The position numbers and the translations under genes are program-made. 64,000 nucleotides of DNA. Origin: Lathyrus oleraceus (Eukaryota > Streptophyta > Magnoliopsida > Fabales > Fabaceae). Location: assembly GCF_024323335.1 (NCBI RefSeq), contig NC_066579.1, positions 252,333,575-252,397,574 on the forward strand. Reading direction: 5' to 3'. Positions 7,640-58,904 of the stretch are shown in pieces (the first letter of the stretch is position 1; each line of letters begins with the position of its first letter). The notes beneath the pieces were generated by a model. It made no database searches, was not told where the DNA came from, and worked only from the letters and a program-made list of their open reading frames with translations.

Positions 7640-7903
7640 CAACAGAGCCGCCACCGTGCGTTATTTATCCCAAAGGAGGGAAAGGAAACGCTCGAAGTAA
7701 ACCTGGAAAAGACATGGTCTCGCGACCAGAGAGAGATGGGATCGGGAGTCGGTTATGCGAAGGGAAGGTATTAGCACCCCTACGCATCCGTCGTACTCGA
7801 CGGGATCCACGCACAAAAGAAAGGATAAAGGTTGCTAAACACTGCTCAAACATCACACAACGGCTGAAAAGAGACACAGAAACGACAAAAGAAACTAACT
7901 CGG

Positions 7904-8399
7904 CAGGATATCGCATCCTGGGCCTACGTAGTCTGTCAGGCACAGACATCAGAGTCGACGTAGTTCGGGACAGGGGGGAACGTGCTCGCTAGGATATCGC
8001 ATCCTATGCATACGTATCTTCTCTGACTGGAGAAGAATCAGAGCACTCGTAGCTCGGCTAACGCACGCCAAACAAAACCACACAGGAAACCGACTGCCAA
8101 TCGCTGGACTTACGTCAGACTCCACACAAACAGGCAACATGGAAACCGAATACCAATCGCTGGACTTACATCAGACTCCGAACCAAACAAACACACACTG
8201 GAAACCAAATGCCAATCGCTGGACTTACATCGGACTCCAAGCACACGACGAACAAACACAGGAAACCGACTTCCAATCGCTGAACTTGCGTCAGACTCCA
8301 AACACACACAAAGGGTTGCAAAAGAAAAAGGGCGCCCGGAGAGATCAGCTCATCTCCTGCCTACGTACCTCATCTGGTATGAGGACCAGGGCGACGTAG
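7904..8399 (-). repeat. Structured U5 modules of element B LTR
   Basis: Three complete modules, read on plus. First: CAGGAT-ATCGC-ATCCTG (7904-7920), outer CTACGT (7924-7929) with ACGTAG (7958-7963), inner GTCTGT (7931-7936) with ACAGAC (7942-7947). Second: TAGGAT-ATCGC-ATCCTA (7990-8006), inner TCTTCTC (8017-8023) with GAGAAGA (8030-8036). Third: outer CTACGT (8361-8366) with ACGTAG (8394-8399), inner CCTCAT (8368-8373) with ATGAGG (8379-8384). Stems differ in sequence yet pair perfectly; the pentaloop ATCGC (GCGAT in sense) is constant in the first two. Confidence 0.65.
8060..8310 (-). repeat. Four 56-61-bp tandem repeats between U5 modules of element B
   Basis: The word CCAATCGCTG recurs with AATCG at 8099, 8155, 8214 and 8275, each followed by GACTTACRTC-GACTCC-like sequence and an ACA-rich spacer. 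Each can form CCA-ATCGC-TGG (the last copy TGA), reusing the loop of the flanking structured modules, so these look like degenerate module copies that have lost the inner stem. Confidence 0.65.
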
Positions 8400-10105
8400 T
8401 TCCCCTACACAGGGAAAGCAATTCTAACCTAACCAGAGACTGGGAAATGACATACTAGAAGGGAGACTAACTCGAGCCTAATAGTTATCATGTAAATTCA
8501 CCATGGTCCTAGGTTGAAGTTTCTATCTAACTTGCATAGGGAGCAAGCTATCCTAAACAGCACAGGCAAAGCAAACATACACACAATTAGCACACACTAT
8601 ATACAAACAAAGTGGGCTCACAAAAGGTTAGGCTGTGAAACACAAGCCAATTGGAATCGGGTGTAGTTAGCTCTTAACCCTAACATTGAGAGTTAGGGTG
8701 AAGCAGATGAAATGGGAAGTGAGGGTAAGACCCTACAGCTCTTATCCCTGGCCTGGGAGAGCTTCAGACAAATGAAAGTGGGAGTTCAGAAAGTTGGAAC
8801 TCTTCTATCCACATATGACTGACTCAACAATGATCTTGGGTTAATATCCACAATGCATCAACACAAGGTGTGTGAGCAAAGTGGATGACACACTGAATAG
8901 CAGGAGATGGATTGCACATCTCTTTTATCTGCCAATTGCCTCATAGAGGTCTTTACCTGCTTGGCACAAAGGTAAACAAATACAAGCATTGCCTCTTAAG
9001 GAGGACTTCAGACAGGTGCCTGCCCAAGTAACAGGACAGGTCTTCCAGACTACATGAAGTCAGAAAGTTATACCTCAAATGGTTAAGCAACCAAGCAAAG
9101 AAAAAGCAAGTTCAAAAGAACTTAAGCAACTTATGTACCTGAAAAAAATCTAACTCAATCAGTATACAAGTCAATCAATCAAACAGACAATCACACAATC
9201 AATCAGACAAGCAAGCAAGCAATGCCACAATGTACAAGGCACAAGCCAATGGGCATAACACAAACAACTTGGCATCAACCTACAAAACAACTCAAAGTTA
9301 GTCAACATCAACCAATTAGTCAACTCAAGAGAGTGAATCAATCCCATCATAGCAATGTACTTCTTAACCTGAAATCAAAGCTCAACTGTGAGTCACCAAC
9401 CACTAGGGCAAGGCCTAGGGTCAAAGAGGGAGAAAAAATTCAAAACAGAACATGAAATTCAACATGAATCAACCACAATCAATTAAGAACACCATCCAAA
9501 AGGTCTCATATCATTATCATCAACCAAATTCATTTCACAAACCAAACATGGCAAGGTATGCAAGTGGAAAGCACATTGAGGCAACAAAATGAACAAATGC
9601 ACATTAATTCAACAATGATCCAAATAATCTCAACAAAAATCATGGCTAAACAGAACACACAACATGATCAACACACCAAAAATTAGGGCATTTGGACATG
9701 ATTAGGCATGGTAATCAAATTGTATAAGGCAAGGCAATCAAAACAAGCTCAAATGGGACACAACTTGATACATCAACATAGCACAAGCCTAAAACAGAAA
9801 TGGTAATTGATAAAAACCCCAAATAAAATCCAAAACAACCTTTAACATGTCTAGAAAGAGTGTGCAAAGTTTCACATCCATATGATAAAGCACAAGCATT
9901 TCACAAACAATTGAAATTCAAGACACTTCAAAAGCTCACAAATGATCATCCAGCATGAAAAATCTCAATCAAATCAGAAATCAATCCAAAAATTCCACAA
10001 AAAATCATGAGCATTCACAACATCCATAAGAAGCATCATACAAAAAATCAAGGCATTTGGAATTTATTTGGTAGGGCAAAGAAATTAATCAGATTGAGCA
10101 AGAAA

Positions 10106-14079: not shown

Positions 14080-17000
14080 TGCACAACACCGGGTCCTGTT
14101 GATAACAGTTCTGCTATGGCTCGCTTCGACTTTGAAAATCCAATCTTTCAAGCTGAAGAAGAGGGTGATGAAGACTGTGAACTCCCTGAAGAACTTGCCA
14201 GGTTATTAAAACAGGAAGAAAGGGTCATTCAACCGCATCAAGAGTCTGTGGAAGTGATTAATCTTGGCATCGAGGACGTCAAGAGAGAGATCAAGATAGG
14301 GGTTGCTTTGGAAGATAATATGAATAAGGGGTTGATTGAATTGCTGCAAGAATATGTTGACATCTTCGCTTGGTCTTATCAGGACATTCCAGGGCTTGAC
14401 ACAGATATTGTGGTACACCGTTTGCCTCTCAAAGAAGGTTGTCCTCCGGTCAAGCAGAAGCTCAGAAGAACAAGACCAGAGATGGTTGTCAAGATAAAGG
14501 AAGAAATGCAAAAATAGTTAGATGTAGGGTTTCTAGCAGTCACAAATTATCCTCCATGGGTTGCAAATATCGTTCCAGTACCTAAGAAGGATAGAAAGGT
14601 ACGGATGTGTGTTGACTACCGGAATCTGAATAGAGCTAGTCCTAAAGATGATTTCCCATTACCTCACATCGACGTTTTGGTGGATAACACAACTCAGTTC
14701 TCGGTATTCTCCTTCATGGATGGCTTTTCTGGCTATAATCAAATTAAGATGGCACCAAAAGACATGGAGAAGACAACATTCATAACCCCATGGGGCACTT
14801 TCTGCTACAAGGTGATGCCGTTTGGTCTGAAAAATGTCGGAGCAACATATCAACGAGCGATGGTGACTCTTTTCCATGATATGATTCATCATGAAATCGA
14901 GGTTTATGTTGATGATATGGTTGCCAAATCTCAGACGGAAGAAGAACATTTGGTGAATTTGCAGAAATTGTTTGAGCGTTTGAGAAAATTCAAGCTGAGG
15001 CTTAATCCAAACAAGTGTACTTTTGGGGTGAGATCTGGAAAATTACTGGGTTTTATTGTTAGTGAAAAAGGGATTGAGGTGGATCCGGCCAAAGTGAAAG
15101 CGATACAGGAAATGCCTGAGCCAAGAACAGAGAAACAAGTCCGTGGTTTCTTAGGGAGGTTGAACTACATTGCAAGGTTCATCTCTCACCTAACAGCCAC
15201 GTGTGAGCCAATATTCAAATTGCTGAGAAAAGATCACGCTATCAGGTGGAATGATGATTGCCAAAGGGCTTTCGAGAAGATAAAAGAGTATTTGCAGAAT
15301 CCTCCTATCCTTATGCCTCCGGTCCCAGGGAGACCGCTGATTATGTATTTGACAGTACTAGACAATTCCATGGGTTGTGTTCTCGGTCAACACGACGAGA
15401 CAGGTAGGAAAGAGCATGCCATCTACTACCTGAGTAAGAAATTCACAGACTGCGAGTCGAGATACTCAATGCTTGAAAAGACATGTTGTGCACTTGCATG
15501 GGCTGCTAAGCGATTGAGACAATACATGTTGTCTCACACCACCTAATTGATCTCCAAGATGGATCTAGTCAAATACATATTCGAGAAGCCAGCTCTCACC
15601 GGAAGGGTTGCTCGTTGGCAAATGGTACTGACAGAGTACGATATCCAGTATACATCCCAGAAAGCCATCAAAGGGAGTATTCTATCAGACTATCTTGCTC
15701 AGCAGCCGATTGATGATTATAAGCCGATGAAGTTTGATTTTCCAGATGAAGACATCATGTTCCTCAAGATGAAAGACTGTGAAGAGCCAGTTGTTGAGGG
15801 GGGACCTGATCCAGACGAAAAGTGGACTTTGTGGTTTGATGGGGCTGTCAATGCCAGAGGAAGTGGAATTGGCGCTGTCATTACTACTCCGAAAGGTGCC
15901 CACGTGCCTTTCACCGCTCGCCTGACTTTTGAGTGCACCAATAATGAAGCTGAGTATGAAGCTTGTATCTTAGGTATTGAGCAAGCCATTGATTTGAGAA
16001 TCAAGACTCTGGACATCTTCGGAGACTCAGCTCTAGTGATCAATCAAGTGAATGGTGATTGGAACACCCTCCAGCCCAATCTGGTCCCTTACAAAGATTA
16101 CACGACAAGACTATTGACTTTCTTCACAACAGTAAAGTTGTATCACATACCTCGTGATGCGAACCAGATGGCAGATGCTCTTGCCACTCTATCCTCCATG
16201 ATCAACGTGATTCGGTGGAACCACGCTCCCAGGATCGATGTGATGCGCTTCGACAGGGTCGCGTATGTGTTTGCTGCTGAACTGGTAGTTGACGACAAGC
16301 CCTGGTATCACGACATCAAGCGCTTTCTGAAGAATCAAGAGTACCCTGCAGGGGCATCCAACAATGATAGAAAGACTTTGAGAAGATTGGCAGGCAGTTT
16401 CTTCTTGAACAAAGACGATGTGTTGTATAAGAGGAACTTCGACATGGTTTTGCTCAGATGCGTGGATAGACACGAAGCAGACATGTTAATGCAGGAAGTT
16501 CATGAAGGCTCTTTCGGTACTCATGTCGGCGGGAATGCAATGACTAAGAAATTGTTGAGAGCGGGATATTACTGGATAACCATGGAATCTGATTGTTTCA
16601 AATATGCTTGGAAGTGTCATAAATGCCAGATTTATGCTGATAAGGTACATGCGCCGCCAAATCCTTTGAATGTGATGTCTTCGCCGTGGCCTTTTGCTAT
16701 GTGGGGCATCGATATGATTGGAAAGATTGAGCCGACCGCCTTCAATGGGCATCGCTTCATCCTTGTTGCCATCGACTAATTCACCAAGTGGGTCGAAGCA
16801 GCATCGTTCGCGAATGTCACCAGACATGTGGTTGCCCGTTTCATCAAGAAAGAAATCATTTGTCGCTGTGGGATTCCCGAAAGAATCATTACTTATAATG
16901 GTTCTAATCTCAACAACAAAATGATGAAGGAGTTGTGCCAGAACTTCAACATTCAGCATCACAATCTTCCCCTTACCTCCCTAAGATGAACGATGCTGTT

Positions 17001-19705: not shown

Positions 19706-19964
19706 TGTAATACCTCAAAATTTGCCCCCCTCATTCATGCATTCATTTTTAGGTCAGTTAACATTTCATATTGCATTTCATCATGTCAATCGGAATTAGA
19801 TCCAAGAAGCTCGAATATCATCCAAGACACTTTGTGGGTCCTATCTGGGTGATTAGTCAACACAAGGGAATGGCTTGAGATACTTCCAACATGTTCAAAT
19901 GGAGTCTATTCATCAGTCAAAACGTTAATCTTGAAGGAGCAAAAGTTTGTTCATGAGCTGTCAT

Positions 19965-19999
19965 GCTCGCTAGGCGAGCAGAATGGGTCGCCTAGCGAG
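19965..19999. repeat. Nested palindromes in U3 of element A LTR
   Basis: GCTCGC-TAG-GCGAGC (19965-19979) lies within a larger inverted repeat, CTCGCTAGGCGA (19966-19977) with TCGCCTAGCGAG (19988-19999). The same core, TCATGCTCGCTAGGCGA, recurs at 20052-20068. It lies about 300 bp upstream of the TATA box, so it may be a protein-binding or cruciform-forming site. Confidence 0.6.
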
Positions 20000-20107
20000 T
20001 CCCAAGAAAAGCCACAAGAATCACCTACGCTCAGAGGAATTTCTTGAACTGTCATGCTCGCTAGGCGAAGCCCACGCATTTTGAAAATAAAATAATAAAA
20101 AAAAACG

Positions 20108-20243
<136 letters not shown>

Positions 20244-20303
20244 CAGAAAAATCTTGGACTTGGACCTCTCTCATTTGAGCCCACAAAGCCACGAAAATCA
20301 GGT

Positions 20304-20310
20304 TATAAAT
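20304..20310 (+). promoter_or_regulatory. TATA box of element A LTR
   Basis: TATAAAT, aligned with CTATAAATAC in C and TATATAAATA in the solo LTR by flanking sequence (CTGAAATTTCAG-like just downstream). It is about 600 bp from the LTR start. Confidence 0.6.
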
Positions 20311-20866
20311 TCTGAAATTTCAGTAAAGGGAAAAGAAAGAGAGAGAGGGAGAATTGGTGAAAGCTGAAAACACTCTGAAGTTTCCTTGGAACAAAAGGCT
20401 AGAGAGATTCTAACTAATTCAGAGCAACCTCCAGAGACTGAAGGGAACTCATCTGCAAAGAACCAATTCCCTCTCATATAAACCCTAAGATTGTTCTGCA
20501 AAGCCAACGGTGCAATTCAATTTCAATCGATCCTCCCCAATCAGTTTTTTTGTGAGGGCTCACATGACTCTTGAAAGGATAGCTTGCTTGGCATTCCACT
20601 TTATTTGTGGGATACCATTTGGAGATTTATTCCGATTACCTGTATTGACTTGCTTTCTTTGATGGTGCCAGCTCGAGAGATCTCTGAGTTTCTTATTTCT
20701 TTAGTTGTTATTACTTCGGATCTTTTGTAACCCAAACAAACTCATTGATTTTTCTTCTCCTAAGAACACGTTAACTCCTTCTACTACAGGCGAGTAAGTC
20801 TCCAAAGGTCGAGCATCCGGTAGATTGCGTAGTAACATCGTTCATCTAAAAAACACAACCCTTAAC

Positions 20867-21045
20867 CCGTAGTTAGCCAAACTACGGTTTGCTCTGATTC
20901 TCATTCCAGATGAGATACGTAGGCATAAGACGCGATGTCTTAGCGAGCACACTCCTCTTTAACCCATAGGTAGCCGAGCTACGAAGACTCTGATTCTCAT
21001 ATCCAGATGAGATACGTATGCAGTGGATGTAATATCCGTGCGAGT
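20867..21045 (+). repeat. Two structured U5 modules of element A LTR
   Basis: Module 1: CCGTAGTT (20867-20874) can pair with AACTACGG (20880-20887), or CTACG (20882-20886) with CGTAG (20918-20922). Inner TCTCAT (20899-20904) pairs with ATGAGA (20910-20915), then TAAGAC-GCGAT-GTCTTA (20926-20942) and GCGAG. Module 2 repeats the order at about 20973-21045 with TCTCAT/ATGAGA and GGAT/ATCC around GTAAT, ending GCGAG. The two possible partners of CTACG suggest a switchable fold. Confidence 0.65.
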
Positions 21046-21355
21046 CATTTTCTTTTGACCCCCTCTTTTAGCAAATAGTACATTAGATAAACCCACACCC
21101 TTTAGACAAGAACAACAAAAGTGGATCCCGTAGAGTACTACGGATGCGTAGGGGTGCTAATACCTTCCCTTCGCATAATAGACTCCCGAACCCAAGATTT
21201 GGTTGTGAGACCTTGTCTTTTCCTTTCCTTTTTTTTCCAGGATTACTTCGAGCGTTTCCTTTCCCTCCTTTGGGATAAATAACGCACGGTGGCGACTCTT
21301 CTGTCATTTCTTTCTCGCCGGTTGTTTTTCGCATCTCCTTTTTCAGGTTGCGACA

Positions 21356-28400: not shown

Positions 28401-29918
28401 TGGTATGTGTAAGACCCCAATTTTGACCCTAAGATCCCTCATGCAATTTCATCATATGCATTAGCATTGGGATCACACCTTGGCATTCTCCTTACTCCTC
28501 TTTCATTGGTTTTGTTTGGGGAGAGATCACCAAGCACTATGTGATTGTATCATACTTGTATATTATCATTTTTACTAATCAAAATACCAAAAATATGTCT
28601 TTGTATTTGTCTAACCCCTTTGTAGGTAGGGCATGATCCCCATTGATCTATCAAGTTCACATCTAGGGTTTAACACCCTCATGGCTAAAAGTACAATCAA
28701 GGATTGATCCACAATGTCTCAAAGCATCATATATGAGTCCCAATGACCTCTACATGTTATATTGATCAAGTATTCTTCAAGAGTTTGGAGGTGATTTGCC
28801 TTGGAAACCTTTGTTTGATTGGGTATCTTAAGTAACTTCTCCAACAAGCTATCTCACCAATTGATCAAACTTCTAAAGGGACATTTAAAAATTCATCATA
28901 TTATGCATATATGATCTACCATGAGTCTATAAAGTCAAGAGAATTGGAGGTTAGCAAGTTGGTTGATGGTGGTTGGCCAGATGAATTCATCTAATCAAAA
29001 TTGGGCCTCCCTAGACCCTATCTCCTACAATTTTCACCATATGAAAATGATTTCAAGAGAAATGTTACTCTAAATGACATTCCAAACAACTTTCATGTTG
29101 ATACCTAGAGCTAGTTGTTCTTGGAAAATCATTTTCTATGTTGAAACAATATAGGTCATTTTTTCTAAACCCGAATTTGAATGTCAACTTCCCAAGACCA
29201 TAACTTGCTCAATTTTTATGAGATGAAATATTTCCAAGTTGAAAAATCAAATTCAATATATCTACTTCAACTTTGATGTTTGGAGTGAGAGCTAAATCAA
29301 CTTTTATGAGTATTTGATATGAGGATACATTATAGGTCATTTTTTACCTATACCTTTGAACAAGTGATTTTCCTCAACTTCAAAAATGCATAACTCTATC
29401 ATTCTAAAGCCAAATAACATGAAATTGGTGGCCATTTGGAAGGTATTTGAAATATCTACCACTTTGATAAAGACACCTTTCTCATTTGGAGCTCACATAA
29501 AAAGTTAAGTAAGGTGGAATATTGAGATATATGACTTAACACTTAGAAAAAAATTCAACATGTTGAAATTTTCAAACTTCCCCCTCAAAATTCACCATGA
29601 TCCAAGTTCCAATTGGAAACGTTTCCAACATCAAAGTTGTTCCCCTTGATCTAAGTCTCCAAAGAACCATGTTTCATGCATTTTGGATGAGGTTTGTTAG
29701 GGTTGCGCATGGTCTTAACAGGTCTGCATCATTAGAGAAACTCAAATGTCCAAAACTCCATTTCACTTTTCCTTGCCATTCAAGCATGATTTGAACTTCA
29801 GTACAGTTGAAATTGGATCATAATGGATTGCTTCATGGGCTTGTACACGCCCATGCAAGCTTGTGCATCACATTTCCAAATTTAGAAAATTTTCAAGTGT
29901 GCAATTATCAATCCCAAA

Positions 29919-29926
29919 TATAAATA
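29919..29926 (+). promoter_or_regulatory. TATA box of Ogre LTR
   Basis: TATAAATA followed by CAAGGCCTCTGAGC. In the deleted LTR copy the same site is changed (CTATAGACACAAGG near 55180), so that copy has probably lost its promoter. Confidence 0.65.
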
Positions 29927-32687
29927 CAAGGCCTCTGAGCGCATTTCAAGGACCCCTTGCGCGCCAGCTTTGCCCCCCAATTGAAACCCTCACAATTCAA
30001 AGGAAAGCCTGAGAATTTTCAACTTGAAAATTGAGTTTGAATCTCACTGTTTGGAGATTTAAAAACTCCATGATCCAAAGCTTTGTACCATTGCCAAACC
30101 ACTTCTGCAAGCTCCTCGAGTGTGATCAAGTCAAGTTTGAAGCAAGCAAGATCCATTCTACACAGCATTGAAGGTAATTTTCATAAATCTTCTTCTCTTC
30201 GATTCTCACTCAATTCTCTTGGATCTTTGGTTGTATGAAGTCCTACCAATATAGGCAAGAAGAATGAGTTGAATTGCGGTCAATTCGAAGCAACTCAGTT
30301 GACACACCTCAAAATTCAACTCCCCATATCTTTCTATATATTTGGAGTTAGTTGAAATTGAGGTCAGATTCGTGCTCTACGCCATTTTTTCTTTAGATCA
30401 TGTCCTCTTTTTTCATTTTGGTGATGGTGATGATTGAACCAGTCCGGTGGACCTCGCCTGAGAAGGTGATCAGAGGTCCAGCACTGGTGGTGTGCTGGAC
30501 AGGTTCTGAGTCATTGATCTCATTTAAAATGTTTTAATCTTGAGCGCCCAAAGTAATTACCACGCGTGTGGAACAGTTGACCGGGTGTATGGTGGAATGC
30601 GCGCTCACGTCCACTTGATTTGCCACCTCAATTAATGAGGGAGATCAAGTGGTCCACGTTTTTTTTGATTTTCTGATTTTCATTTTATTTCATTTGTTTT
30701 TCATTAATTCGTATTAATTTTAATATTGATCCAAAAAATATGAGAGTTTCACCAAAAAAATTTAAATAAATTCTTCTTTCATATTTTGAATTAAAATTAT
30801 TTTTTGGATCATTATTAATATTTTTCATGATTTAATTGATTTTGTGAATATTTTTAATTGTTTAAAAATACTTTTAAGTCTCCAAAAATTTTGAACTTTT
30901 TTCTCCAAGGTCCTTTGACCTTGTTTGAACTATGATAAATCTCATGGCCATTTCTTTGGTGTTTTGATGAGATTTTAGGAATTTGACAAACCATATTTAA
31001 TTTAATGCATTATTTTTAGTATTTTTAAATTGAATAAATGTCAAATAATTGTGTTGAGCTATCTTGATGATTTGTATAAGTTTAACTTGTGTTGTTGGGC
31101 CTTGGTCAATGTTGATTTGACTTTGTTAGGTTAATATCATTGAACTTAGGGGATTGATGGAATGTACATTGCATCTCCCAAAATGAATGAATGATCTTAA
31201 TTTGGTAAAAGTCCTCCTTTGACCAATTTGAGTTTTGATCTATTCCCCTCCCTCTTCATCTAACTCCCCTTCTTTATGCATTCATTTCATTTGGTATGTG
31301 ATATCTCTAAATCCTAAGGCTAGTTGATTGTAAAATCAACATAAGTATGGATGAGATTAGGCCACCTCTTTTGCATATTCTTTTTGTGTGTGTTATGTTT
31401 CATGAGCATAATCCATTATACTATGTCTCTAACATGCATTAACACCAAAATTATATTGCCCGGCCTCAAATAGTTGTGACTTCTACATAAGTCCAATTAC
31501 GATTTCTTAACATAGCGCTAAGTTTTTGATACAAAAGGCATAACATTCTAGTTAGTGAGATTGTAAGTCTCCCCTCTTTCATGGTATTGTGTGAAGACTT
31601 GACCTTTTTTCCTTCCTTTGAAAGATGTCTTGGTTCAAGTATCCATGCTTGTGATAAGTGGGTTGAGTGTTCTCCAAAGAATGATTTAAAATGAAAAGCA
31701 AAAACAATACTAACTTCTAATTCATTAACAACTAACATTTAATTTCAAGCCATTTACTTTTAATGCACTTTAATTTTTAAGCTTTATTCATTTGCCATTA
31801 TTCATGCCATTCTAATTGTTTATATTAATGCCTTTTCACTTTGTCCACTTGGACCATATTGTGTGATATATCTTGTTTGTGTATATTTTGTTTGTTTTTG
31901 TGGTCTTTGACCATTATTGTACATAATAAGACACAAAAACCCTAAAAAACTATTGTGTGGACTGTTGGTTTGATCTTGGGCAATTAGACTTAGAATATAG
32001 GCAACATTCTTATGCAAAAGGACTTGGCCAATGCCAACTTTCATGTAACCAAGTGCTTGCAATTTGAAACTTCATCTGAGTTCATCTGCAACATGATCTT
32101 TGTGAAGTTGTTATTTTGAACCTATGACTTGTGGAATTCATCTGCTACATGGGCAAATTTGAAGAAGATCAAGGAGTGGCTAAAGCTTGGATGTGGCTAT
32201 CTTTATTTGATTCCTTGCTCTTCAAATTAATATTGTATGCATTGTTTGTTGCTTGATTCTAATATCCAAGGGAATTTGGGGTTTCTATATGACATTCTTG
32301 TCCATTGGATTGCAGCCCATTTGTCAGATCTTTTCAACTCTTAACTTTTAAATTTATACTTAGGATTAGTCTCTTCATCTCCTCCCCACTTCTTTAATTT
32401 CAAAACCTCTCCCTCATTTTTAAAAAAAAAAAGTCTTCTTTGCTTGTACTAGTTTTTTTTGTTAAACTTTGACCACTTTGCAAACTAGAAACTTTGGTCT
32501 TATGCCATTACATTTTCAAACTTCTTTTCTTAAATCAAACTTATAAATAAACTTAAATATACTTGACTTAAAAATTTTAAAAGGCAAAAAGAACTAACTC
32601 ATTCGAACCATTTTCTAGGCCCTCGTGCCTTTCAAACTTTATTTTTGATTAAAAATAGTGCATCCACTTTGAAATTTGTATCATGAA

Positions 32688-32747
32688 CTACGAGGATTTG
32701 ATCCCTCATTTTATGTTGGTACGTAGGCACAAGTCCGAAGGTCTTGT
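32688..32747 (+). repeat. Structured U5 module of the Ogre LTR
   Basis: CTACG (32688-32692) pairs with CGTAG (32722-32726), then GC, then ACAAG (32729-32733) with CTTGT (32743-32747). The spacing and the CTACG...TACGTAGGC frame match modules in A, B, C and the solo LTR although surrounding sequence differs. In the copy near 56691 the C-to-T change in ACAAG keeps pairing as G-U. Confidence 0.5.
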
Positions 32748-33015
32748 CAAACACAAAAATATAATTAATGAATTCTTTTCTCATCCCCCCATTCTATTTG
32801 TTTGTAAACATCATTTTAATCAAAATACATATGCACACAAGAAAGGGCTCTCCCTAGGAGTACCTAGGACACTTTGGGTGCTAACACCTTCCCTCTGTGT
32901 AACCAACCCCCTTACATGTAATCTCTGGCATTTTATTAGTTTTGATTTGAAAACTTCTTACTTTTGGGTTTTGTTCGTACTTTTCCCTTTTCCCTTGGAA
33001 ACAATAAAAGCGCGG

Positions 33016-33029
33016 TGGCGACTCTTGTT
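33016..33029 (+). promoter_or_regulatory. PBS-like echo inside the LTR end
   Basis: TGGCGACTCTTGTT matches the start of the true PBS 74 bp downstream (TGGCGACTCTGTT) apart from one inserted T. The same GGTGGCGACTCT word is at the corresponding LTR end in A, C and the solo LTR (GGTGGCGGCTCT in B). Confidence 0.55.
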
Positions 33030-33089
33030 ATTTGACGTCTAGCTTATCCATGGCTTGATGGTCATGAATTTACCTCTATAGAAATTAAG

Positions 33090-33107: not shown

Positions 33108-33946
33108 GTAGTCTCCAGTGGGTTTAGCCTACTTTTTTGTGTGTATATAATTGTATATATGTGATGTATGTATATTTGTGTGATATAATTTGCTTATTGT
33201 GCTTGGTGATCTCTGAGTGCTGAGATAAGTTCTAACCCGAACTTGAGTACAATTAAGATAGGAGGATGGTATAGTCATTTTCTTCTTGTGTGGAGTAGTC
33301 CTTAACAAGTTGGCTTGAGAACCATCTTCTCAATGGAGACCCTTTTGGATTTGGAAATGTCACACAAGTATTTGTGGTTAGGCATTACTATCTCTATTTT
33401 GGGTCCGAGAAGCTGAGGACCGTAGAACACTTATCCCTCTTGGTCTATCTAGGACGTAGTGCGGAGACTGTTCAAGTGTAGACTTGATAACAGTTGTTAC
33501 GCGACACTACACTCAGACGAGTTTCTCTTGAGAATATTATGGGTCGATGAGTCAGTCATCTTAACCTGTAATATCCGATAGATGGAATTAAGACTCTAGG
33601 AACTTTTTAGAACATGATCTACATGTTTTATCCTTAGTTCACTCCTTTGGGATGGTTCTTACCCAGACTCCATGCTCGTGACTCACAACAAACCCTTGAT
33701 TCTTGGTTGATCCAATCAAGTCTTGTCTATATCAATGGAACTTGGGTGTTGATAAGGTGTAAACCATAATCCACCAAAATGGATGATTGATCTTGACAAT
33801 GACTTGATTCATCCTTTGACCTTTGTTTGCTTGCCTTGTGTGTGATCCCTTATTTGTGATTGTTGCATTCATGCATTCATACGCATCATAGCATTCACAT
33901 GAAAATTTCAAGGAACTGAGGTATTATTTGCAAATATTTTCAGACC
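33108..33946 (+). other. 5' leader of Ogre element D
   Basis: Non-coding, 839 bp between PBS and ORF1. No convincing ORF. It contains several short upstream ATGs, so ORF1 would need leaky scanning, reinitiation, splicing or an internal entry mechanism. This is an inference from position only. Confidence 0.5.
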
Positions 33947-35449
33947 ATGGATTGTGGAAGAAGGAACACTAAGAAGTACGGTTTCAAAAGTCCTGACTTG
34001 AAAGAGTTAAGGAAGCTAGCATCTTTTGTATCAGATCCCTTGGACTTCAAACAACGCCATAGGAAATTATTGTCTGTCTTGTCTGCAGATGTGGTTGAAA
34101 GACTTCTGAGTGTGCTAGTACAGTTCTATGATCCTCTCTACCGTTGTTTCACTTTCCCAGATTACCAGCTTGTGCCTACATTGGAGGAGTATTCTCATCT
34201 CTTAGGGATACCCATTTCTAGTAGAGTGCCTTTTAGTGGATTGGAGGAGATTCCCAGATCTCATCTTATTATTGAAGCTCTTCATTTGAAGAAATCTGAG
34301 ATAGAGGCTCATTGGGCGAAGAAAGGAGGGTTATTTGGGTTGCCGCCTGATTTCCTCATCAAGGAAGCTACTGCTTTCGCTCAAGCATGTAGTGTGGACG
34401 CTTTTGAAGCTATCTTTGTGTTGCTCATTTATGGATTATCTATGTTACCTAACATTGACGATTTTGTTGATGTTAACGCCATTAGACTTTTCTTGATTGG
34501 GAATCATGTACCTACTTTGTTGGGTGATATGTATTTCTCTTTGCATCTAAGAAACTCTAAAGGTGGTGGAACTATTGTCTGTTGCATTCCTCTTTTGTAC
34601 AAGTGGTTTATTTCGCACTTGCCTCAGACACCTGCTTTTGTGGAGAAAAAACAATGTCTACGGTGGTCTCAAAGACTTATGTCTCTCACTAATGATGATA
34701 TAGTTTGGTATGATCCTTCATTGAGCAGTTTGGAGATTATTGACTGTTGTGGTGAATTCTCTAATGTGCCTCTCATTGGTACACAAGGAGGAATTAACTA
34801 CAACCCTGCTTTGGCTCGCCGACAACTTGGGTTCCCCTTGAGAGACAACCCTAATAACACTTTGTTAGAAGGTCTTTACAATCAAGAGGGTAAATATCCC
34901 CAACATTTGAAGCAAAAGATTGTGCATGCTTGGCATAATGTGCATAGGAAGGGAAGATCCGAGCTTGGTCCGTGCAATTATGTAGCTTTAGAAGCTTACA
35001 CTACTTGGGTAAAGAAAAGAGATTTGGAGTTGAAGATGCCTTATCCTTGTGAAAGACATATATCTATGGTTGTGGTTGAGCCATTAACTCTCCCTAACCA
35101 AGATGTAGAGGAGTTGGAAGACACGCTTGTTAAGATGAAGCAAGAGAAGGATATGTGGGAAGAGTGTTTCCGTGCTTTGAGAAAGAAGCATGAGGAGTTG
35201 CAGTTGGAGTCTAAGGACAAAGACGCACTCATTGAGCTACTTGAAGACCGAGTTACAAAGAGAGATAGAGAGCCGAAGGTTTCATCTTCTAGCATGCCTC
35301 ATCCTTCCGTCGCTTGGAAGAAGGTTGTTGATCAGCTTGTCCTCGAGAAGACTCAGATGAAGGCTTCTTTTGAGACCGAGATTCATCGCATTCGAAGGAA
35401 GTACGCTCCTACTGCCAGATCTTCTGACATTGTTGTTAGGGATCCTTAG
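33947..35449 (+). CDS. Ogre ORF1 protein (plant mobile domain-like), intact
   Basis: A 500-residue frame without interruption, upstream of gag, the hallmark extra ORF of Ogre. The N-terminal 370 residues look like a folded alpha-helical domain with FPDYQLVPTLEEYSHLLGIP near residues 65-85, a pattern seen in plant mobile-domain/aminotransferase-like proteins; residues about 385-455 (VEELEDTLVKMKQEKDMWEE and on) are a probable coiled coil; the tail is basic. Its biochemical role is unknown. The start ATG follows TTCAGACC. It is notable that this frame is intact while the adjoining gag-protease frame has many stops. Confidence 0.8.
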   Translation: MDCGRRNTKKYGFKSPDLKELRKLASFVSDPLDFKQRHRKLLSVLSADVVERLLSVLVQFYDPLYRCFTFPDYQLVPTLEEYSHLLGIPISSRVPFSGLEEIPRSHLIIEALHLKKSEIEAHWAKKGGLFGLPPDFLIKEATAFAQACSVDAFEAIFVLLIYGLSMLPNIDDFVDVNAIRLFLIGNHVPTLLGDMYFSLHLRNSKGGGTIVCCIPLLYKWFISHLPQTPAFVEKKQCLRWSQRLMSLTNDDIVWYDPSLSSLEIIDCCGEFSNVPLIGTQGGINYNPALARRQLGFPLRDNPNNTLLEGLYNQEGKYPQHLKQKIVHAWHNVHRKGRSELGPCNYVALEAYTTWVKKRDLELKMPYPCERHISMVVVEPLTLPNQDVEELEDTLVKMKQEKDMWEECFRALRKKHEELQLESKDKDALIELLEDRVTKRDREPKVSSSSMPHPSVAWKKVVDQLVLEKTQMKASFETEIHRIRRKYAPTARSSDIVVRDP

Positions 35450-35728: not shown

Positions 35729-38194
35729 ATGTCTCATTGGTGTTTCTTTTGTGCTTCAGCCAAGCTGACTCATCGGTACAACACTCGCGTCAATCACTCC
35801 AAAATCATGGAACATCTTGAGCAAGAGAATAAAGAGCTAAAGGACGAGATCGCTCGACTGACTGCCATGATGGAGTCAGTGTTAGCTGCTCAGAGCCAGT
35901 CTTCTCCAACACCCACAACTCTTCCTCCTCAAAGGACTGTTATTTCAGAGGTGGCTACCTCTCCCATGCATACCGCTCATTTTGCGCCTGCCATGCCTGC
36001 CGGATTCCCGTGGGGAACGCCGCCGAACTTCGTGCCTGAAGGCTTTGCGCCTACCTTTGCTTTTATGTCGGCATCTATCCCGGTCATGTCTGTGCCACCT
36101 CCCATAGTGCATACCTTACCTCGTGTGGAAGACACCATTTATCATTCCGAGCCATCTGAGGGCCCGAACGTGTATGAGAAAATGGATGAGATGAAGGATC
36201 AATTTCTTGAGCTGCGCAAGGAGTTGAAAACATTGAGAGGTAAGGACCTGATTTGAAAGAGTGATGTTGGATTATGTCTGGTGCCGAATGTGAAGATTCC
36301 GGTGAAGTTCAAAGTGCCTGACTTTGAAAAATACAGAGGGAACACATGTCCGCTCAGTCATTTGGTGATGTATGCCCGCAAAATGTCTACCCAAACTGAC
36401 AATGATCAGCTGTTAATCCACTACTTCCAAGACAGTCTGACCGGTGCGGTGCTCAGATGGTATATGGGGTTGGACAGTGCAATCATTCGCACATTCAACA
36501 ATTTGGGAGAAACTTTTGTCAAATAGTATAATTATAAGATGGATATGGCGCCTGATAGATACCAGTTGAGGTCCATGTCTTAGAAGGATAAGGAGATATT
36601 CAAAGAATATGCACAGAGATAGAGAGAGTTAGCTGCTCATATCACTCCTCCTTTGGAAGAAAAGGTGATGACAAAGATCTTTTTGAAGACCCTGAGTTCA
36701 TTTTACTATGAATGTATGATCGCCAGTTCCCCCAGTGACTTTACCGAAATGGTAAATATGGGGATGAGGCTTGAAGAAAGTGTCCGAGAAGGACGATTGT
36801 CAAAAGAGGAGGCATCATCGAGTAAGAGATATGGCAGCAGCTTCGGGAAGAAGAAAGACAGCAAAACCAACGCAATTTCCAGTGGGAGACAGAGGAGGCC
36901 TCAAATCAGAAAGAATCAACCACCCCATTAACACCATCATCAAGTATCCTCCGTAATTCCTATATTTTCCGCAAGTCAATCAACACCAATTCAACAACAA
37001 CAACATCAACAGCAACAACCACAGCGACGAACAAACACCTACAATAACAACAATACCAACAATCATCAACAACAAACTTTCGAGAGGAAGAAGGTCTCTT
37101 TCGACCCAATTTCTATGACCTATGCATAGCTTTATCCCTCGTTGGTTCTCAAGAACCTACTCCAATCGAGAAGTCCGCCACAAATTCCTGAACCACTTCC
37201 ATGGTGGTACAAGCTTGACCTCCGTTGTGCTTTTCATCAAGGAGCACCCGAACATGATATTGAGAACTGTTATCCACTCAAATACAGAGTTCAGAAGCTA
37301 GTGAAAAGTGGAATGGTATCCTTTGAGGACCACGCACTTAATGTGAAAGCAAACCCACTGCCAACCCATGGAAATTCATTTGTTAATATGGTGGACGGTT
37401 GTCCCGGAGAGTTTAAAGTGTTTGATGTATGTTTCATAAGGAGATCCTTGGTGACGATGCATAAGGACATTTGCGTAGTGAGCGATTGTGAGCATGACCA
37501 TGATGGTTGTGCTATCTGCAATGTTAACCCAAGGGGTTGTATGGTTGTGAAAAGAGACATCCAGCGGATGATGGATGAAGGTATGATTCAAATTATTCAA
37601 TCCCGTCACATAGATGACGATGTGAATGTCATAGTGCCCGTTTTCAAGAATCCAGAAAGAGTAGTCATTCAGTACGACAACAGTAATAGTAATAGCATCA
37701 GTCAGAGATCGGTAACGCCGTTGGTCATACGGTTGGCGGGTCCAGTCCTATATGCATCCGATAAAGTTATTCCTTATCAGTATAATGCAACAATGTTGAA
37801 AGATGGTCAAGAGGTTCCATTGCCTACAACCAGCTTTGTAGTAAGCATTACTGATGTTACTAAAGTGACCCGTAGCGGTCGAGTGTGTCGCAACCTGAAA
37901 AATACAGTGTGCGAAAAAACAACCGGCGAAAGAAAAATACAGAAGAGTCGCCACCGTGCGTTATTCATCCCAAAGGAGGGAAAGGAAACGCTCGAAGTAA
38001 ACCTGAAAAAGGAAAGGACAAGACGGGGTCTCGTAACCAAATCTTGGGTTCGGGAGTCGGTTATGCGAAGGGAAGGTATTAGCACCCCTACGCATCCGTA
38101 ATACTCTACGGGATCCACTTTTGTAGTTTTCGTCTAAAGGGTGTGAGTTTATCTTGTGCTGTTTACCAAAAAAAAAGGTTAAATGGAAATGACT

Positions 38195-38370
38195 CGCGCG
38201 GATGTCGCATCCACTGCATACGTATCTCATCTGAATATGAGAATCAGAGTCTTCGTAGCTCGGCTGACCTATGGGTTGGGGGATGTGTGCTCGCTAAGAC
38301 ATCGCGTCTTATGCCTACGTATCTCATCTGGAATGAGAATCAGAGCAAGCCGTAGTTCGGCTAACTACGG
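38195..38370 (-). repeat. Two structured U5 modules of the solo LTR
   Basis: Plus-strand TAAGAC-ATCGC-GTCTTA at 38295-38311, CTACGT just after, CTCAT/ATGAG, and CCGTAGTT/AACTACGG near 38350-38370. The other module has GGATG-TCG-CATCC near 38200-38212. The layout is the same as in A and C. Confidence 0.6.
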
Positions 38371-39292
38371 GGTTATGGATTGGGTTTTGGACGAACGACG
38401 TCACTACGCAATCTACCGGATGCTCGGCCTTTGGAGACTTACTCGCCTGTAGTAGAAGGAGTTAACGTGTTGCTTTGGGTTTTAGGGTTTGGGATGCTCA
38501 AGGGCAAAAAGGCAGTCCTTGATGAAGGAACCGCGCTACCTGCAGGGATACGAACACATACAAAACAAACATGTATAAAGTAAATGTGCCAACAAGGGGC
38601 TCAGAAGTAAATAAACAAAAGAAAACAAATGCCTCCTATCGAGGTCTTCCAGCTAAGAAAGCGATAAAATGCGGAAAAGAGGTAAAAGTAGCACACGGAT
38701 AAAGATCTGAAGTAACAGCAATTAAAGGAGTAAGAAACCCAGGGATCTCCCAAGCTAATGCCATCAAAGAAAGGTGAGTCAGTACAGGTAATTGGAATGA
38801 ACCTCCAGGGGTTATCCCACAAATAAAGTGGGAAACCACGCAAGTTATCCCTGCAAAAGTCATGTGAGCCCTCACAAAAACTCAACAAAAGGGTTAGTGA
38901 AACACGATAAGCATTTTTTTCATGAATAACAGTATGGTTTCAGAAACCTCAAACCCTGTGGCATACACTCAAAAATTAAACGGATAAACATTCAAGGCAT
39001 TGTTTATACATTCATATACATATTAAACCCATGGGCGAAAAACCTAATGAAATTCATCCATCATACCTCATACATTCAGAGTATTCAACTTCAAAGCAAA
39101 AGGTAATGGGAATAAAGGCAAACCTGATTGGAGAGCTTGATTGAAATTGAGTTGCACCCGTGAGGCCCTTCAGGGTTTGGAGGCTGCTCTGAGTTCTCTG
39201 TCAGGTTTCTCTTCAGGTTTTGTCCAGGGTTTTGTTCCAAGGAAACCTCAGAGTATTTTGTTTCTCTTCCTTTTTCTCAAGTGAAACCTTGG

Positions 39293-39302
39293 TATTTATA
39301 TA
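39293..39302 (-). promoter_or_regulatory. TATA box of the solo LTR
   Basis: Minus strand TATATAAATA, about 250 bp from the LTR start. A T-rich (A-rich in sense) tract at about 39355-39470 lies upstream of it. Confidence 0.6.
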
Positions 39303-40432
39303 CTGAATTTCATGGTTTTGTGGGCTCAAATGAGAGAGACCCAAGTCCAAAAATTTTTATTATATTTTATTTATTTTTTTATTATTTTTTTTATTTATTT
39401 ATTTTTTTTGTAAAAAATTATTTTTTATTTTTTATTTTTTTTCGTTTTTTTTTCCATTTTTTTTTCGGATCTAATTCTGATTGACATGATGAAATGCAAT
39501 ATGAAATGCTAAATGAATGCATGAATGAGGAGGGCAAATTTTGGGGTGTTACAGAGTGTTTGGGTCGGTGATCCCAAAATTTGTAGAAGATTCAACAGTC
39601 ACTAAGAAGGTGGAAGTACCTGCAATAGATCCAATTAGCACTTCAAAGCGTCAGTCTGGTGAATCCAGCAATTTGAAGGCTAATGATGATGATGAGGTAC
39701 TCCGTCTGATCAAGAAAAGCGAGTTTAATATGGTGGAGTAGCTGCTCCAAACCCCCTCAAAGATTTTAGTATTGTATCTACTCAAGTTCAGAAGCGCACA
39801 GAGAAGCACTCCAAAGAGTTCTAGAATAAGCGTTTGGGGAACATGATGTTACGGTGGATCAATTTGATCATATTGTGGCTAACATCACTTCCTGCAACAA
39901 TCTCAGCTTTTGTGATGAAGAACTCCCTGTGGAGGGTAGGAATCATAACTTGCCTTTACACATCTCCATGAATTACAAAGATGATGCTTTGTCCAATGTG
40001 ATTGTTAACACCGGATCGTCGTTGGATGTGCTTGATAACACTGAAATTTATCGTATTTTCGACTCCGATTTCACATGAATTCTAGTTGTTTTATTGTTAT
40101 TTTGTTGTGTTATTGCTATGTTTTCCTTTGTTTTCAGGTTTTTACTTTAATTGGAGCCTCGATCGAGAAAAGGAGTGAAAAAGAGCTAAAATCCCTAAAA
40201 TTCAACATTTTGTACTTGTGGCCTACCCCATGGCTAGTGCCATAGACCCTGCCATGACGTCTCCAAGCTCAACTTCCCTCAACTGCCACGTTCCCCACTA
40301 CTTCCACTAAGGCGCCTCAGATTGGCCTTGTGGCGGGCGCCATGGCCTTGTGGCGGGTGCCACAAGAGGAAACGTTTTCCTCCCATTTTCAAGTTGAAGG
40401 GCATCCTTGTCATTTCCATCTTTTTACTTGCT

Positions 40433-40440
40433 TATAAATA
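40433..40440 (+). promoter_or_regulatory. TATA box of element F 5' LTR
   Basis: TATAAATA followed by GAAACTCG, 400 bp into the LTR; the 3' LTR has the identical box at 52238-52245. Confidence 0.7.
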
Positions 40441-40723
40441 GAAACTCGAAATCACTTTTACAATCATCCAAACTTAGAGCAGAGGCAAACTAAGAGCAAC
40501 TTTGTTTCACTTAGGCATATATTCAGTATTATAAAGTGGTAATCGCTTCGCATTGGAGTGTTACCACAATTGTGTAATCAAGTCTGTGATAGAGTCTGTA
40601 ATCGAGTTTGGAGCACTTTGGAAGGAAGTTAATCCTGCCACCATTTTCATTTCCGCTTTGTAATTTATTCAACCCTCAGATTGGAGCAGGTTTTTATTAC
40701 TTGTCTTTATCTTATTTATTTTC

Positions 40724-40970
40724 TCGCACTCGCTTTAAATTATTTAATACCTCGCACTCGCTTTAAATTATTTATTTTCTCGCACTCGCTTTAAATTATT
40801 TATTTCCTCGCACTCGCTTAATTTTATTTATTTTCTCGCACTCGCTTTAAATTATTTATTTCCTCGCACTCGCTTTACTTTTATTTATTTTCCCGCACTC
40901 GCTTTACTTTTATTTACTTTCCGCACTCGCACTACTTTTATTTACTTTCCGCACTCGAACTACTTTTATT
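40724..40970 (+). repeat. Nine-unit CGCACTCG tandem array in 5' LTR of F
   Basis: About 27-33-bp units made of CTCGCACTCGCTTTAAATT plus TATTTATTT, with later units changing to CTTTACTTTTATTTA. Nine copies of CGCACTCG are present. The 3' LTR array also has nine. Confidence 0.85.
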
Positions 40971-41763
40971 TAAATTAATGCACTTTTACTTTACCATGTC
41001 TAACTAAATCTATAAGGTTAGAATGTAAGAATCGTAATTGAACCGATAATCCATACAATTGTTCGTAGAAGCACTTAAGGGCTATTTTAACTTTCAACTT
41101 AAGTTTTCCCGCACTTAATTTCCGTTGGGTAAGATCGAAAGCCGTCCAACGTCTTTTTAAACTTAATTGCTTTTAACTATTTCAAAAACAGCGAAAGCGC
41201 TTTGTTTAGTTCATTAGGAGTTTTTAACTTAAGAAGAAAAGAGATTTTAAAACTATTTTCGGACGCGTTTATAAGTTTAGAGTCTGATTCGTGAGAACCT
41301 CTTTTGGTTCAGAAATCCAGGTTATAATACTTTTCAACTTAGTCAAGATACTATATTTCTTAAAAATAGGTTTACTACTCTAACGCAATGCGCGCCTTTT
41401 TATAAGTGACAATAAGAGGGTTTGATTAGGGAGTACAACTCGGTTCTGAATACGCGAAAGCGACAGTTCCCGTTATATTAGTTCTTTTCAAACTAGAAAA
41501 CATTGCCCATAAGTAGTTCTGTTAGCAAGTATTTGGATTATTAATTGATTACGTGAATTACATTCGACCTTGTCTTTATTAATTAAATCTTTATTCAACA
41601 CTTTACTCTTCATTGCACACTCCAAAAACACCTATTTTGATTGCCTTTGATAAACACCATAACAATAGATAACGATAGATTGACACTTGGTCTTTGTGGA
41701 TTCGATAATCTTTTATATTACTCTGACGCGTTCGTATACTTGCGAAACACCGCATCAAGTTTT

Positions 41764-41781
41764 TGGCGCCGTTGTCGGGGA
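41764..41781 (+). promoter_or_regulatory. Primer binding site of element F
   Basis: TGGCGCCGTTGTCGGGGA; Athila-type elements use a near-identical PBS assigned to tRNA-Asp. It begins seven bases after the LTR end. Confidence 0.8.
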
Positions 41782-41848
41782 ACAATTTCGTCAAATTTCA
41801 TTTCCCTGTTGTTATATCGTTTAGACTTAGGCTATTTCCCGCCAGTCA

Positions 41849-43957
41849 ATGCGAAGAACTCACAGCACCGGAAGTTTAAGCTTAGTATACCCTCTGGCGG
41901 AACCTGAACGTTACGCTCGCGCACGTTTATTCTTTCATAGAATTAAGAGAGCTATGGCCGAAGATCAAAACCAAAGACCTCTTAAGGATTTCGCTCAACC
42001 ATCAAATGAAGAACCTAGTTCTAGTATAGTAAACCCAACCACCCCAGCTAATAATTTTGAACTTAAACCATCCTTGTTGCAACTAGTGCAACAGAGACAA
42101 TTCGCAGGTCTCGCTACTGAGAACCCAAACCAACATTTAAAAATATTTCTTCAATTAGCAGACACTTTTAAAACCAATGGAGCTTCTCCTAAGGCAATAC
42201 GTTTAAGATTATTTCCTTTTTCCCTCAGAGATAAAGCCCTATCATGGTTAGATTCCCTTCCACTCAATTCCATTACGACTTGGGATAATCTTAGAAGAGT
42301 ATTTCTTGCTAGATATTTTCCCCCGAGTAAGACCGTCGTTCTTCGAAACCATATAACTAGATTTACCCAAAACCAAGGAGAATCGCTGTTCGAAGCTTGG
42401 GAGAGATATAAAGAGTTGTTACGAGCATGCCCACATCATGGTTTAGAAGATTGGTTAATCATTCAAACCTTCTATAATGGACTTCACTATAAGACGAAGA
42501 TGACCATCGACGCTGCCGCAGGTGGTGCTCTGATGAACAAACCTTATCCTGAAGCTAGTGCCCTCATCGAAGATATGGCTCAAAACCATCAATCATAGGG
42601 AGTCGAACGAGCGACAGTAGAGAAGAAGGAAGCCCAAGGAGGAGTGCATGAACTAAGCTCTATAGACATGATGCAAGCTAAAATGGACGCATTAGCCCTC
42701 AAAGTCGAGCATATGTGCATAAACCCGAATACTGTAGCCGCAATTTCGTCAGATTGTGAGATATATGAAACCAAAGGACACCAATCTACAGAATGCATTC
42801 TATTAAACGAAACCCACTCTGAGCAAGTGAATTACACCCAAGGGAACCCATACTCGAATACCTATAACCCCGGATGGAGGAATCACCCGAACTTATCCTA
42901 TAAAAACAATAACCCTATCTAAAATAATGCACCTCCGAGACCTAGTTATCAAGCCCCAAGATCGAATCAACCTATGCAACCTGTGCCACCAAAGTCGAGC
43001 CTTGAGAAAATTATGGAAAATTTTATCACCGCTCAAACCGAACAAAACAAGGAGTTCATGAACCAAAACATTCATGTTAACGAATTGATTACTCAGTTAG
43101 GAACCAAGGTTGACCAAATAGTTACTCATACCAAGATGCTTGAAACTCAGATCTCTCAGGTAGCTTTAAACCAAGCCCCTCAGACTACACCTGGAGGACA
43201 ATTCCCTGGACAACCTCAACAAAATCCGAGAGGACAAGCCAATGCCATTACCCTACGAAGTGGGAACGCTTATGATGAGCCACCAAACCCTAGATTGAGT
43301 GAACCCAAAACTTCTAAGGAATGTACCAAGCCCCCGGACGAAGTAAAGGAACCAGAGGAATCTAAAAACTAGGAAGGTCGAGAAAAAGGAGAAGAACCTA
43401 AAGATAAAACTTACGTACCACCCCCGCCATATAAACCACCTATACCATATCCGCAAAGACTCAAACAAACCCAGATCAATAAACATTATCAAAAATTTAT
43501 TAAAGTTATAGAAAAACTTCATGTAGAAATCCCTTTCACAGAAGCCATCACCCAAATACCTTCTTATGCAAAGTTTCTCAAAGACATCCTTACCAACAAA
43601 CGTAGACTTGACGATCCGAAGCCTTTGGAATGTAATGCTATTTCCAAGGACAAATTAGCAAAGAAAGATAAAGATCCTGGAAATTTCTCCATTCCTTGCC
43701 TTTTGGGTAATCATGTCATCGAAAAAGCTTTTCTAGACTTAGGAGCTAGTGTAAGCTTAATGCCTTTAGCAGTTTGTGAGAGGTTAAACTTAGGAGAATT
43801 ACAGTCCACTAAGATGTCACTTCAGTTAGCCGATAGATCTGTTAAATATCCGATAGGCATTTTAGAAGATATTCCTGTTAGGATAGGTCAGTTATTTATC
43901 CCTACTGATTTGGTTGTCATGGACATCAAAGAGGACAATGATATCCAATCCTTCTAG
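41849..43957 (+). pseudogene. gag-pro: gag-protease of element F, four in-frame stops
   Basis: A single frame from 41849 (alternative ATG at 41954, MAEDQNQRP). The capsid region is clear at about 42060-42590 (FLQLADTFKTNG, LRLFPFSLRDKALSWL, RFTQNQGESLFEAWERYKEL). A CEIYETKGHQSTEC knuckle-like motif is near 42760, then a coiled-coil-prone segment, NAITLRSG near 43245, a Pro-rich linker and the protease LDLGASVSLMP near 43735. Stops are at 42596, 42920, 43370 and 43955; a frameshift near 43942 precedes the next frame. The domain order is normal for Athila. Confidence 0.85.
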
Positions 43958-47249: not shown

Positions 47250-47287
47250 ATTATAATCGTCAAGCTAATGACGTTAAACAAGCGCTG

Positions 47288-47305
47288 CATGGGAGGCAAC
47301 CCATG
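47288..47305 (+). repeat. Hairpin after pol of element F
   Basis: CATGGG-AGGCAA-CCCATG, a perfect 6-bp stem with a 6-nt loop, 38 bp after the pol stop, preceded by AAACAAGCGCTG. The GGGAGGCAACCCA word is recurrent at this place in legume Athila elements as far as I recall. Confidence 0.6.
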
Positions 47306-47389
47306 GTTTTTCTTTCATTTTACTTTTCACATTTATTTAATTTTATTTTTCTTTTATCATATTTTGCATTAAGACTAAAATTTAAATGG

Positions 47390-47425: not shown

Positions 47426-47426
47426 G

Positions 47427-58850: not shown

Positions 58851-58904
58851 ACTGATTTTCGTGGGTAATGGGCTCAAATGAGGGAGACCCAAGTCCAAAA
58901 TAAT

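Follow-up and report, generated by a model that had tools for sequence, protein, structure and literature searches.

A predicted sense-strand RNA pseudoknot repeated in Tat and Ogre-like LTRs of Lathyrus oleraceus

To our knowledge, the cis-acting RNA signals of plant LTR retrotransposons have hardly been mapped. A topology relevant to the locus described here is that of the HDV-like ribozymes, a nested P1/P2 pseudoknot with two inserted hairpins (strand order a, b, hairpin, a', hairpin, b') in which the loop of the first hairpin (L3) is constant. Among LTR retrotransposons, published accounts describe a pseudoknot in the 5' leader of the yeast element Ty1 that lies near the primer-binding site (PBS) and is needed for transposition (PMC5767303), and the musD transport element (MTE), a cis-acting RNA with a pseudoknot (PMC12786077, PMC5767303). 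Small structured RNAs are also found in plant retroelements, namely the hammerhead ribozymes of plant retrozymes (PMC4918200). Sequence models of plant Ty3/gypsy LTRs, according to PMC3601003, could not be built because LTR lengths are too variable.

The window analysed here, a 64-kb stretch (64,000 nucleotides) of Lathyrus oleraceus DNA, contains Tat and Ogre-like LTRs in which a first-pass annotation had described a repeated RNA-like module. Judged by structure alone, this module, ~75 nt long, is very probably an RNA pseudoknot of the sense strand; its predicted assignment to the H type, with two hairpins (S1 and S2) set into two of the pseudoknot loops, is near certain.

Architecture of the module and its copies in the window

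Four helices can be distinguished: P1 is the outer CTACG/CGTAG helix, S1 the inner hairpin, S2 the 3' hairpin, often capped by GCGAT, and PK a crossing helix in which, when modules are compared side by side, the nucleotides immediately preceding UGAU pair with those immediately following S2. The strand order is GAR, P1 5' strand (CTACG), 1-3 nt, PK 5' strand (xCTC), UGAU, S1, UA, P1 3' strand (CGTAG), GCM, S2, about 2 nt, and PK 3' strand (GAGx). Because PK crosses P1, the whole module is predicted to form an H-type pseudoknot. The strings cited in the first-pass annotation are present where it had placed them, and P1, S1 and S2 of its three-helix plan are supported by covariation, but the pseudoknot was missed: the "GCGAG tail" that it recorded exists and is actually the 3' strand of the overlooked fourth, crossing helix, which in the last B module is at 7897-7901 and so falls outside the range that had been given. 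The GCGAT loop, taken to be constant, is so within families, but is replaced by CCGAAGG in the Ogre-like copies and by GAGCTG in the first B module.

The proposal that modules are present in every recognised Tat/Ogre LTR agrees with the results of a covariance model trained on 48 modules, including two window copies. In the window, the model finds 11 modules in six LTRs, one to three per LTR, all with E below 2e-12 and with nothing further up to E=10 under default filters; the window's one Athila-like element (40032-53142) lacks the module. The matches are:

7890-7968, minus strand: B module 3; P1 strands 7959-7963 (5') and 7924-7928 (3'), PK strands 7952-7956 (5', GACTC) and 7897-7901 (3', GAGTT), hairpins S1 at 7931-7947 and S2 at 7904-7920
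7976-8057, minus strand: B module 2; PK helix TGCTC/GAGCA
8326-8404, minus strand: B module 1; PK CGCCC/GGGCG, S2 loop GAGCTG, junction TGGT, not TGAT
20877-20956, plus strand: A module 1; PK TGCTC/GAGCA
20974-21053, plus strand: A module 2; PK GACTC/GAGTC
32683-32760, plus strand: Ogre-like 5' LTR module; PK GATT/AAAC with one mismatch (GTTT/AAAC in the 3' LTR sister)
38184-38263, minus strand: solo LTR module 2
38281-38360, minus strand: solo LTR module 1
56676-56753, plus strand: Ogre-like 3' LTR module; PK GTTT/AAAC
57720-57799, minus strand: C module 2
57818-57897, minus strand: C module 1

The B module, originally delimited as a single unit at 7904-8399, consists of three separate modules, the first and second of which are separated by tandem repeats, namely four imperfect copies around CCAATCGCTGGACTTAC (8085-8315).

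The host LTRs with delimited borders are:

19706-21355, plus strand: A 3' LTR, with ends TGTAATACC...GGTTGCGACA and a TATA-like box at 20304
28406-33089, plus strand: Ogre-like 5' LTR, its 3' end deduced from the PBS-like GTGGCGACTCTGTTGGGGA that follows
37886-39553, minus strand: solo LTR, with CACTC on both sides (5-bp target-site duplication) and a TATA-like box at 39300
57422-59141, minus strand: C 3' LTR, with a TATA-like box at 58849

Few of the cases in the window alone are independent, since the A, solo and C LTRs share 88-89% identity and the Ogre-like pair belongs to a single element. According to PMC6317226, Ogre/Retand elements have a further RNase H, of archaeal type, located between RH and integrase, and such an extra RNase H marks the Tat clade. 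Element A encodes, in successive frames (14518-16776), RVT_1 and RT_RNaseH, then RVT_3/RNase_H, then Integrase_H2C2, that is, a second RNase H in the Ogre/Retand order, which places it in the Tat clade of Ty3/gypsy. The element at 28406, provisionally called Ogre-like after the first-pass annotation, has a 4.7-kb LTR and an ORF with DUF7745 (33920-35446); an Ogre would be expected to have a pol of its own type, split by an intron, and no Ogre pol was identified between the LTRs. In this element, GGCGACTCT is found at 33017, inside the LTR and beside AATAAA, where it is possibly an internal PBS copy, and again at 33091, in the PBS position; the A, solo and C LTRs likewise carry GGTGGCGACT near the LTR end. 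The Athila-like element contains 28-bp tandem repeats in both LTRs (40705-40992 and 52482-52798), and a match to the plant C/D snoRNA R71 (Rfam, E 4e-07) is located on the minus strand within its interval, at 42338-42444.

In the A, solo and C LTRs, the modules follow the TATA-like box and precede the LTR end, near which there is an AATAAA-like signal. The first module follows the TATA-like box by 573 nt (A), 940 nt (solo) and 952 nt (C), in accord with the downstream position originally reported. In such an arrangement, the leader of the genomic RNA would contain the module, and its 3' end would do so as well provided that the AATAAA-like signal is used.

Covariation and pairing

Covariation was analysed in a set of 94 modules, obtained from 121 by dropping near-duplicates above ~95% and aligned with MAFFT without structural information. 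The scan, our own script following the idea of R-scape, combines a G-test with average-product correction and compares the scores with nulls that keep the tree and the substitutions. With 94 modules and 400 nulls, the best pairs are in S2, followed by PK and S1, with P1 lower. With 115 modules and 600 nulls, the top 8 of the 4371 column pairs are all structural (four in S2, one in P1, two in S1 and one in PK); the 21 added modules, however, all come from lists with an altered 5' P1 base and some were chosen when the partner could be seen, so that the selection is biased towards P1. Over all column pairs of the 115 modules, only three, all in S2, have E<0.05, so that covariation exceeds the phylogenetic null, as predicted, by this R-scape-like script. 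When the scan of these modules is limited to the 22 proposed pairs, eight reach E<0.002, a restriction that is partly circular given that PK was noticed in the same data. Pair-state parsimony yields 43.8 branch events in which both sides changed and pairing was kept, compared to 4.2-6.6 for slid partners.

Similar results were obtained with 48 modules clustered at ~88%, in which 90.6% of the cells are paired and the covariation score is 0.535; shuffling lowers these values to 74.5% and 0.232, and sliding the partners to 31-44% and 0.076-0.149. The argument of the first-pass annotation, that stems which change and stay paired betray a selected RNA structure, is sustained by these figures. The contribution of S1 is uneven: only 76.2% of its cells are paired in the 48 modules, it is imperfect in the Ogre-like copies, and its loops differ in length and sequence among the aligned modules. 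Given the 48-module alignment, RNAalifold returns, unprompted, the crossing PK helix and S2, together with one spurious pair.

The PK helix takes several forms among the 94 modules, most often GCTC/GAGC (28), GTTT/AAAC (24), ACTC/GAGT (16) and GCCC/GGGC (10). All four of its pairs are intact in 85 of the 94 modules, compared to a mean of 54 and a maximum of 62 when strands are shuffled; a possible fifth pair (columns 20-87) is formed in only 51. In the same alignment, a C usually precedes the PK 3' strand. Outside the helices, the 45 modules not selected for GAR have, in the unpaired GAR before P1, the G in 42, the A in 42 and a purine in 44 cases, two misregistered rows and a chance match being among the rows counted. 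An exact UGAU is present in 41 of these 45 modules; UA belonged to the search anchor by which they were found, which tolerated one mismatch.

The PK helix was proposed from the window and modules L029-L096, and 32 modules fetched later (L097-L128) served as a held-out set, chosen with P1, linker and S1 visible and with S2 and the tail unseen. In this set, 111 of 128 PK cells are paired (2 of 5000 shuffles as good), as are 176 of 192 cells in S2 (0 of 5000) and 129 of 192 in S1 (9 of 5000); P1 is paired in all 160 cells but hardly varies, so that 671 of 5000 shuffles do as well. In addition, PK tails were predicted from the linkers in three rounds before the respective sequences were fetched. 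The predicted string was found in 5 of 10 cases in round 1 (for L105, two alternatives were allowed), three others having at least four contiguous pairs, G-U included, by eye, and two being broken. Round 2 gave 3 matches in 12, which is not significant (shuffled mean 1.5, p 0.18) and includes a new six-pair helix, GGATTC/GAATCC; by our assessment, most of the missed tails differ by one or two bases from a large family and may be dead copies. With an exact four-base rule, rounds 1 and 2 together amount to 8 of 22 (3.5 shuffled, p 0.012). In round 3, the four-base rule held in 7 of 8 cases (L132 read by eye), the miss being TCACCC/GGGC, and five-base predictions in 2 of 5 (L130 and L132), including a new TTACTC/GAGTAA.

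Because the letters of P1 are nearly constant, four of its five pairs barely varying, this helix was assessed separately through its fifth base. When any 5' base except G is required and the partner is unconstrained, the first 100 listed of 50,353 matches comprise A-T 50, T-A 42, A-C 8 and no other combination; the 92 compensated copies belong to a few families and do not represent 92 events. The A-T form occurs with several linkers, of the GCCC, GGCTC and ACTC types, and the CTACT/AGTAG and CTACA/TGTAG families have lost the palindrome TACGTA but retained pairing. Compensation was also sought at the fourth P1 pair and found no support: 90 listed CTATG copies include 80 with CGTAG (a U-G pair), 3 with CATAG and 4 with TGTAG, the latter changed at a non-partner site. 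Eleven of the 94 aligned modules, of the GAGCTACG..TACGTATGC type (e.g., 20974-21053), combine an A to G change just 5' of P1 with a G to T change at its end; with a bulged T, P1 could then shift to a register of six pairs.

In S2, G-U combinations (72 cells, 20.1 events) exceed A-C ones (10 cells, 8.7 events), the excess that pairing in the sense RNA would produce. Neither PK (7 branch events from Watson-Crick to G-U and 10 to A-C) nor S1 (G-U 9.2 and A-C 6.9 events) is clearly biased. The folding energy of the 48 modules is slightly better than that of shuffled sequences (mean z -0.82 sense, -0.52 antisense).

Abundance and LTR context in the genome

The module is highly abundant in the source genome (3.795 Gb), where three patterns made mutually exclusive by their P1 5' strand have 143,208 matches, compared to 25 for the reversed controls. 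The single patterns match 83,933, 8,922 and 50,353 times (backwards controls 0, 25 and 0, respectively), and counts obtained with such large-family patterns mean at least that many copies. The first pattern tried, which partly overlaps these three, has 63,477 matches genome-wide and none when reversed. All these copies come from one genome and many derive from few masters, so that effective numbers are far below copy numbers.

Among 68 loci of 3 kb, 39 contain one module, 16 two, 10 three and 2 four, with none by the same rule in the remaining locus; modules within a locus are spaced by 84-759 nt. The last module is followed, at a distance of 222-641 nt (median 369 nt), by a PBS-like motif with up to 2 mismatches in 35 of 67 loci, and, at 220-585 nt, by GGTGGCGACT with up to 1 mismatch in 59 of 67. 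Two more conserved hairpins are located between the module and the LTR end. One of these, downstream of the modules and with the loop AGTA, covaries across loci (stems CCGTCG/CGACGG, CCGTAG/CTACGG, CCTAGG/CCTAGG, CCATGG/CCATGG and TTGTAG/CTACAA); its sense-strand starts are 21127 (A), 38112 (solo), 57650 (C), 7804 (B) and 32853 (Ogre-like). The short sequence GGTGCTAAYACCTTCCC, common to Tat and Ogre-like LTRs, is a possible hairpin with C-G/U-G alternation (sense-strand starts 21153, 38086, 57624, 7778 and 32877).

In viral contigs, the module pattern has 28 matches, none of which is a module by eye, suggestive of chance, and the conserved downstream stretch has none. No relatives of the Tat RT were confirmed in viral contigs, nor of the RNH-INT protein in genome contigs. 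No Rfam family was found at the modules, either in the window at the gathering threshold or in the 11 module loci at E up to 10. Searches of the open-access literature, by topic and with the string TACGTAGGCA and its complement TGCCTACGTA, revealed no description of the module in the titles and abstract openings of the papers listed.

Possible functions and comparison with known systems

The covariation fits a pseudoknot, and the folded RNA itself appears to be preserved by evolution, probably for the handling of the element's own RNA. Packaging, dimerisation and translation control had been put forward in the first-pass annotation as inferred roles. The reading adopted here, a pseudoknot that serves packaging of the full-length RNA, is plausible but tentative when structure and function are taken jointly. 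The module would be transcribed and fold in the cell, where its presumed reader, the element's own Gag, would select full-length RNA for packaging, with several modules per RNA offering several Gag binding sites; the varying helices would be a scaffold, and the constant single-stranded GAR, UGAU, UA and GC the likely contact surface. A site read by a shared element protein is suggested by the several copies per locus and the presence in both Tat and Ogre-like LTRs, and recognition by the element's own protein fits the predicted leader position, the repetition of the module, the unpaired letters that stay constant on a scaffold of changing helices, and the lack of a copy in the one Athila-like element of the window.

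A serious, if unlikely, rival is a nuclear transport element similar to that of musD, whose pseudoknots would recruit host export factors for unspliced, intron-bearing RNA. Export has to be weighed because Ogre RNA is only partly spliced, the intron being removed from only a subset of transcripts, so that unspliced RNA must be exported (PMC6317226 and PMC12786077), and because musD exports its RNA with a pseudoknot (PMC5767303); on the other hand, Rfam connects the 11 module loci with none of the known transport elements at E up to 10. It is rather improbable that the modules are a reverse-transcription or dimerisation element akin to the Ty1 leader pseudoknot. Their position upstream of the PBS-like motif would suit such a role, but the obvious dimer site, TACGTA, is lost in the two P1 families that keep pairing, and the variable copy number and spacing speak against a fixed partner such as a tRNA. 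Translation control, with modules that let ribosomes pass or enter a long leader, would be in line with the great distance of the first module from the TATA-like box in the A, solo and C LTRs; nevertheless, no Rfam IRES is among the matches at E up to 10 in the 11 module loci and copy number ranges from one to four per 3-kb locus, which makes this role improbable.

A self-cleaving ribozyme of HDV topology is highly improbable: the strand order P1, P2, hairpin, P1', hairpin, P2' is that of HDV and the C that usually precedes the PK 3' strand would be compatible with it, but no HDV or other ribozyme is among the 3 Rfam matches at E up to 10 in the 11 module loci, or in the window at the gathering threshold, the loop of the first hairpin, constant in HDV, is variable, and cleavage in the leader would remove the 5' part of the RNA. 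There is equally little reason to favour a DNA-level feature (a cruciform or a TACGTA site of bZIP type) or palindromes that are neutral and were multiplied by copying, for, although copies from few masters could mimic conservation and TACGTA resembles a bZIP core, covariation survives the tree-preserving null, TACGTA is destroyed in families that retain pairing, G-U exceeds A-C in S2, and a cruciform would not be expected to keep a crossing helix. The specific candidates considered, namely HDV and hammerhead ribozymes, a bZIP site and dimerisation through TACGTA, were judged unlikely on the evidence from Rfam, the loop and the loss of TACGTA.

More broadly, the module could represent a new RNA family, a non-catalytic pseudoknot of HDV topology common to Tat and Ogre, with ~140,000 or more copies in one genome, that would act as a modular, copy-number-variable code marking the element's own genomic RNA as distinct from host RNA; this broader proposal is made with caution. 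A landmark defined by structure would provide a testable functional site in Tat/Ogre LTRs and an RNA model with which LTRs can be found and classified. So large a number of copies in one genome is a natural experiment, and the means by which giant plant retroelements select or export their RNA would become testable.

Among the known systems, plant retrozymes differ in their hammerhead ribozyme, for which no Rfam match is present in the window. The covariation-supported topology of the module matches that of the HDV-like ribozymes, from which it differs by the lack of a constant first-hairpin loop, by its UGAU and UA junctions and by the lack of an Rfam match. The MTE is a cis-acting LTR-retrotransposon RNA with a pseudoknot, as the module is predicted to be; it differs in that it also uses a kissing loop and has a demonstrated role in export. 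With Ty1, finally, the module would share a pseudoknot in the leader of an LTR retrotransposon near the PBS; Ty1, however, belongs to another superfamily, and the module is distinguished by its occurrence within the LTRs, one to three times in each of those in the window, and by its two inserted hairpins.
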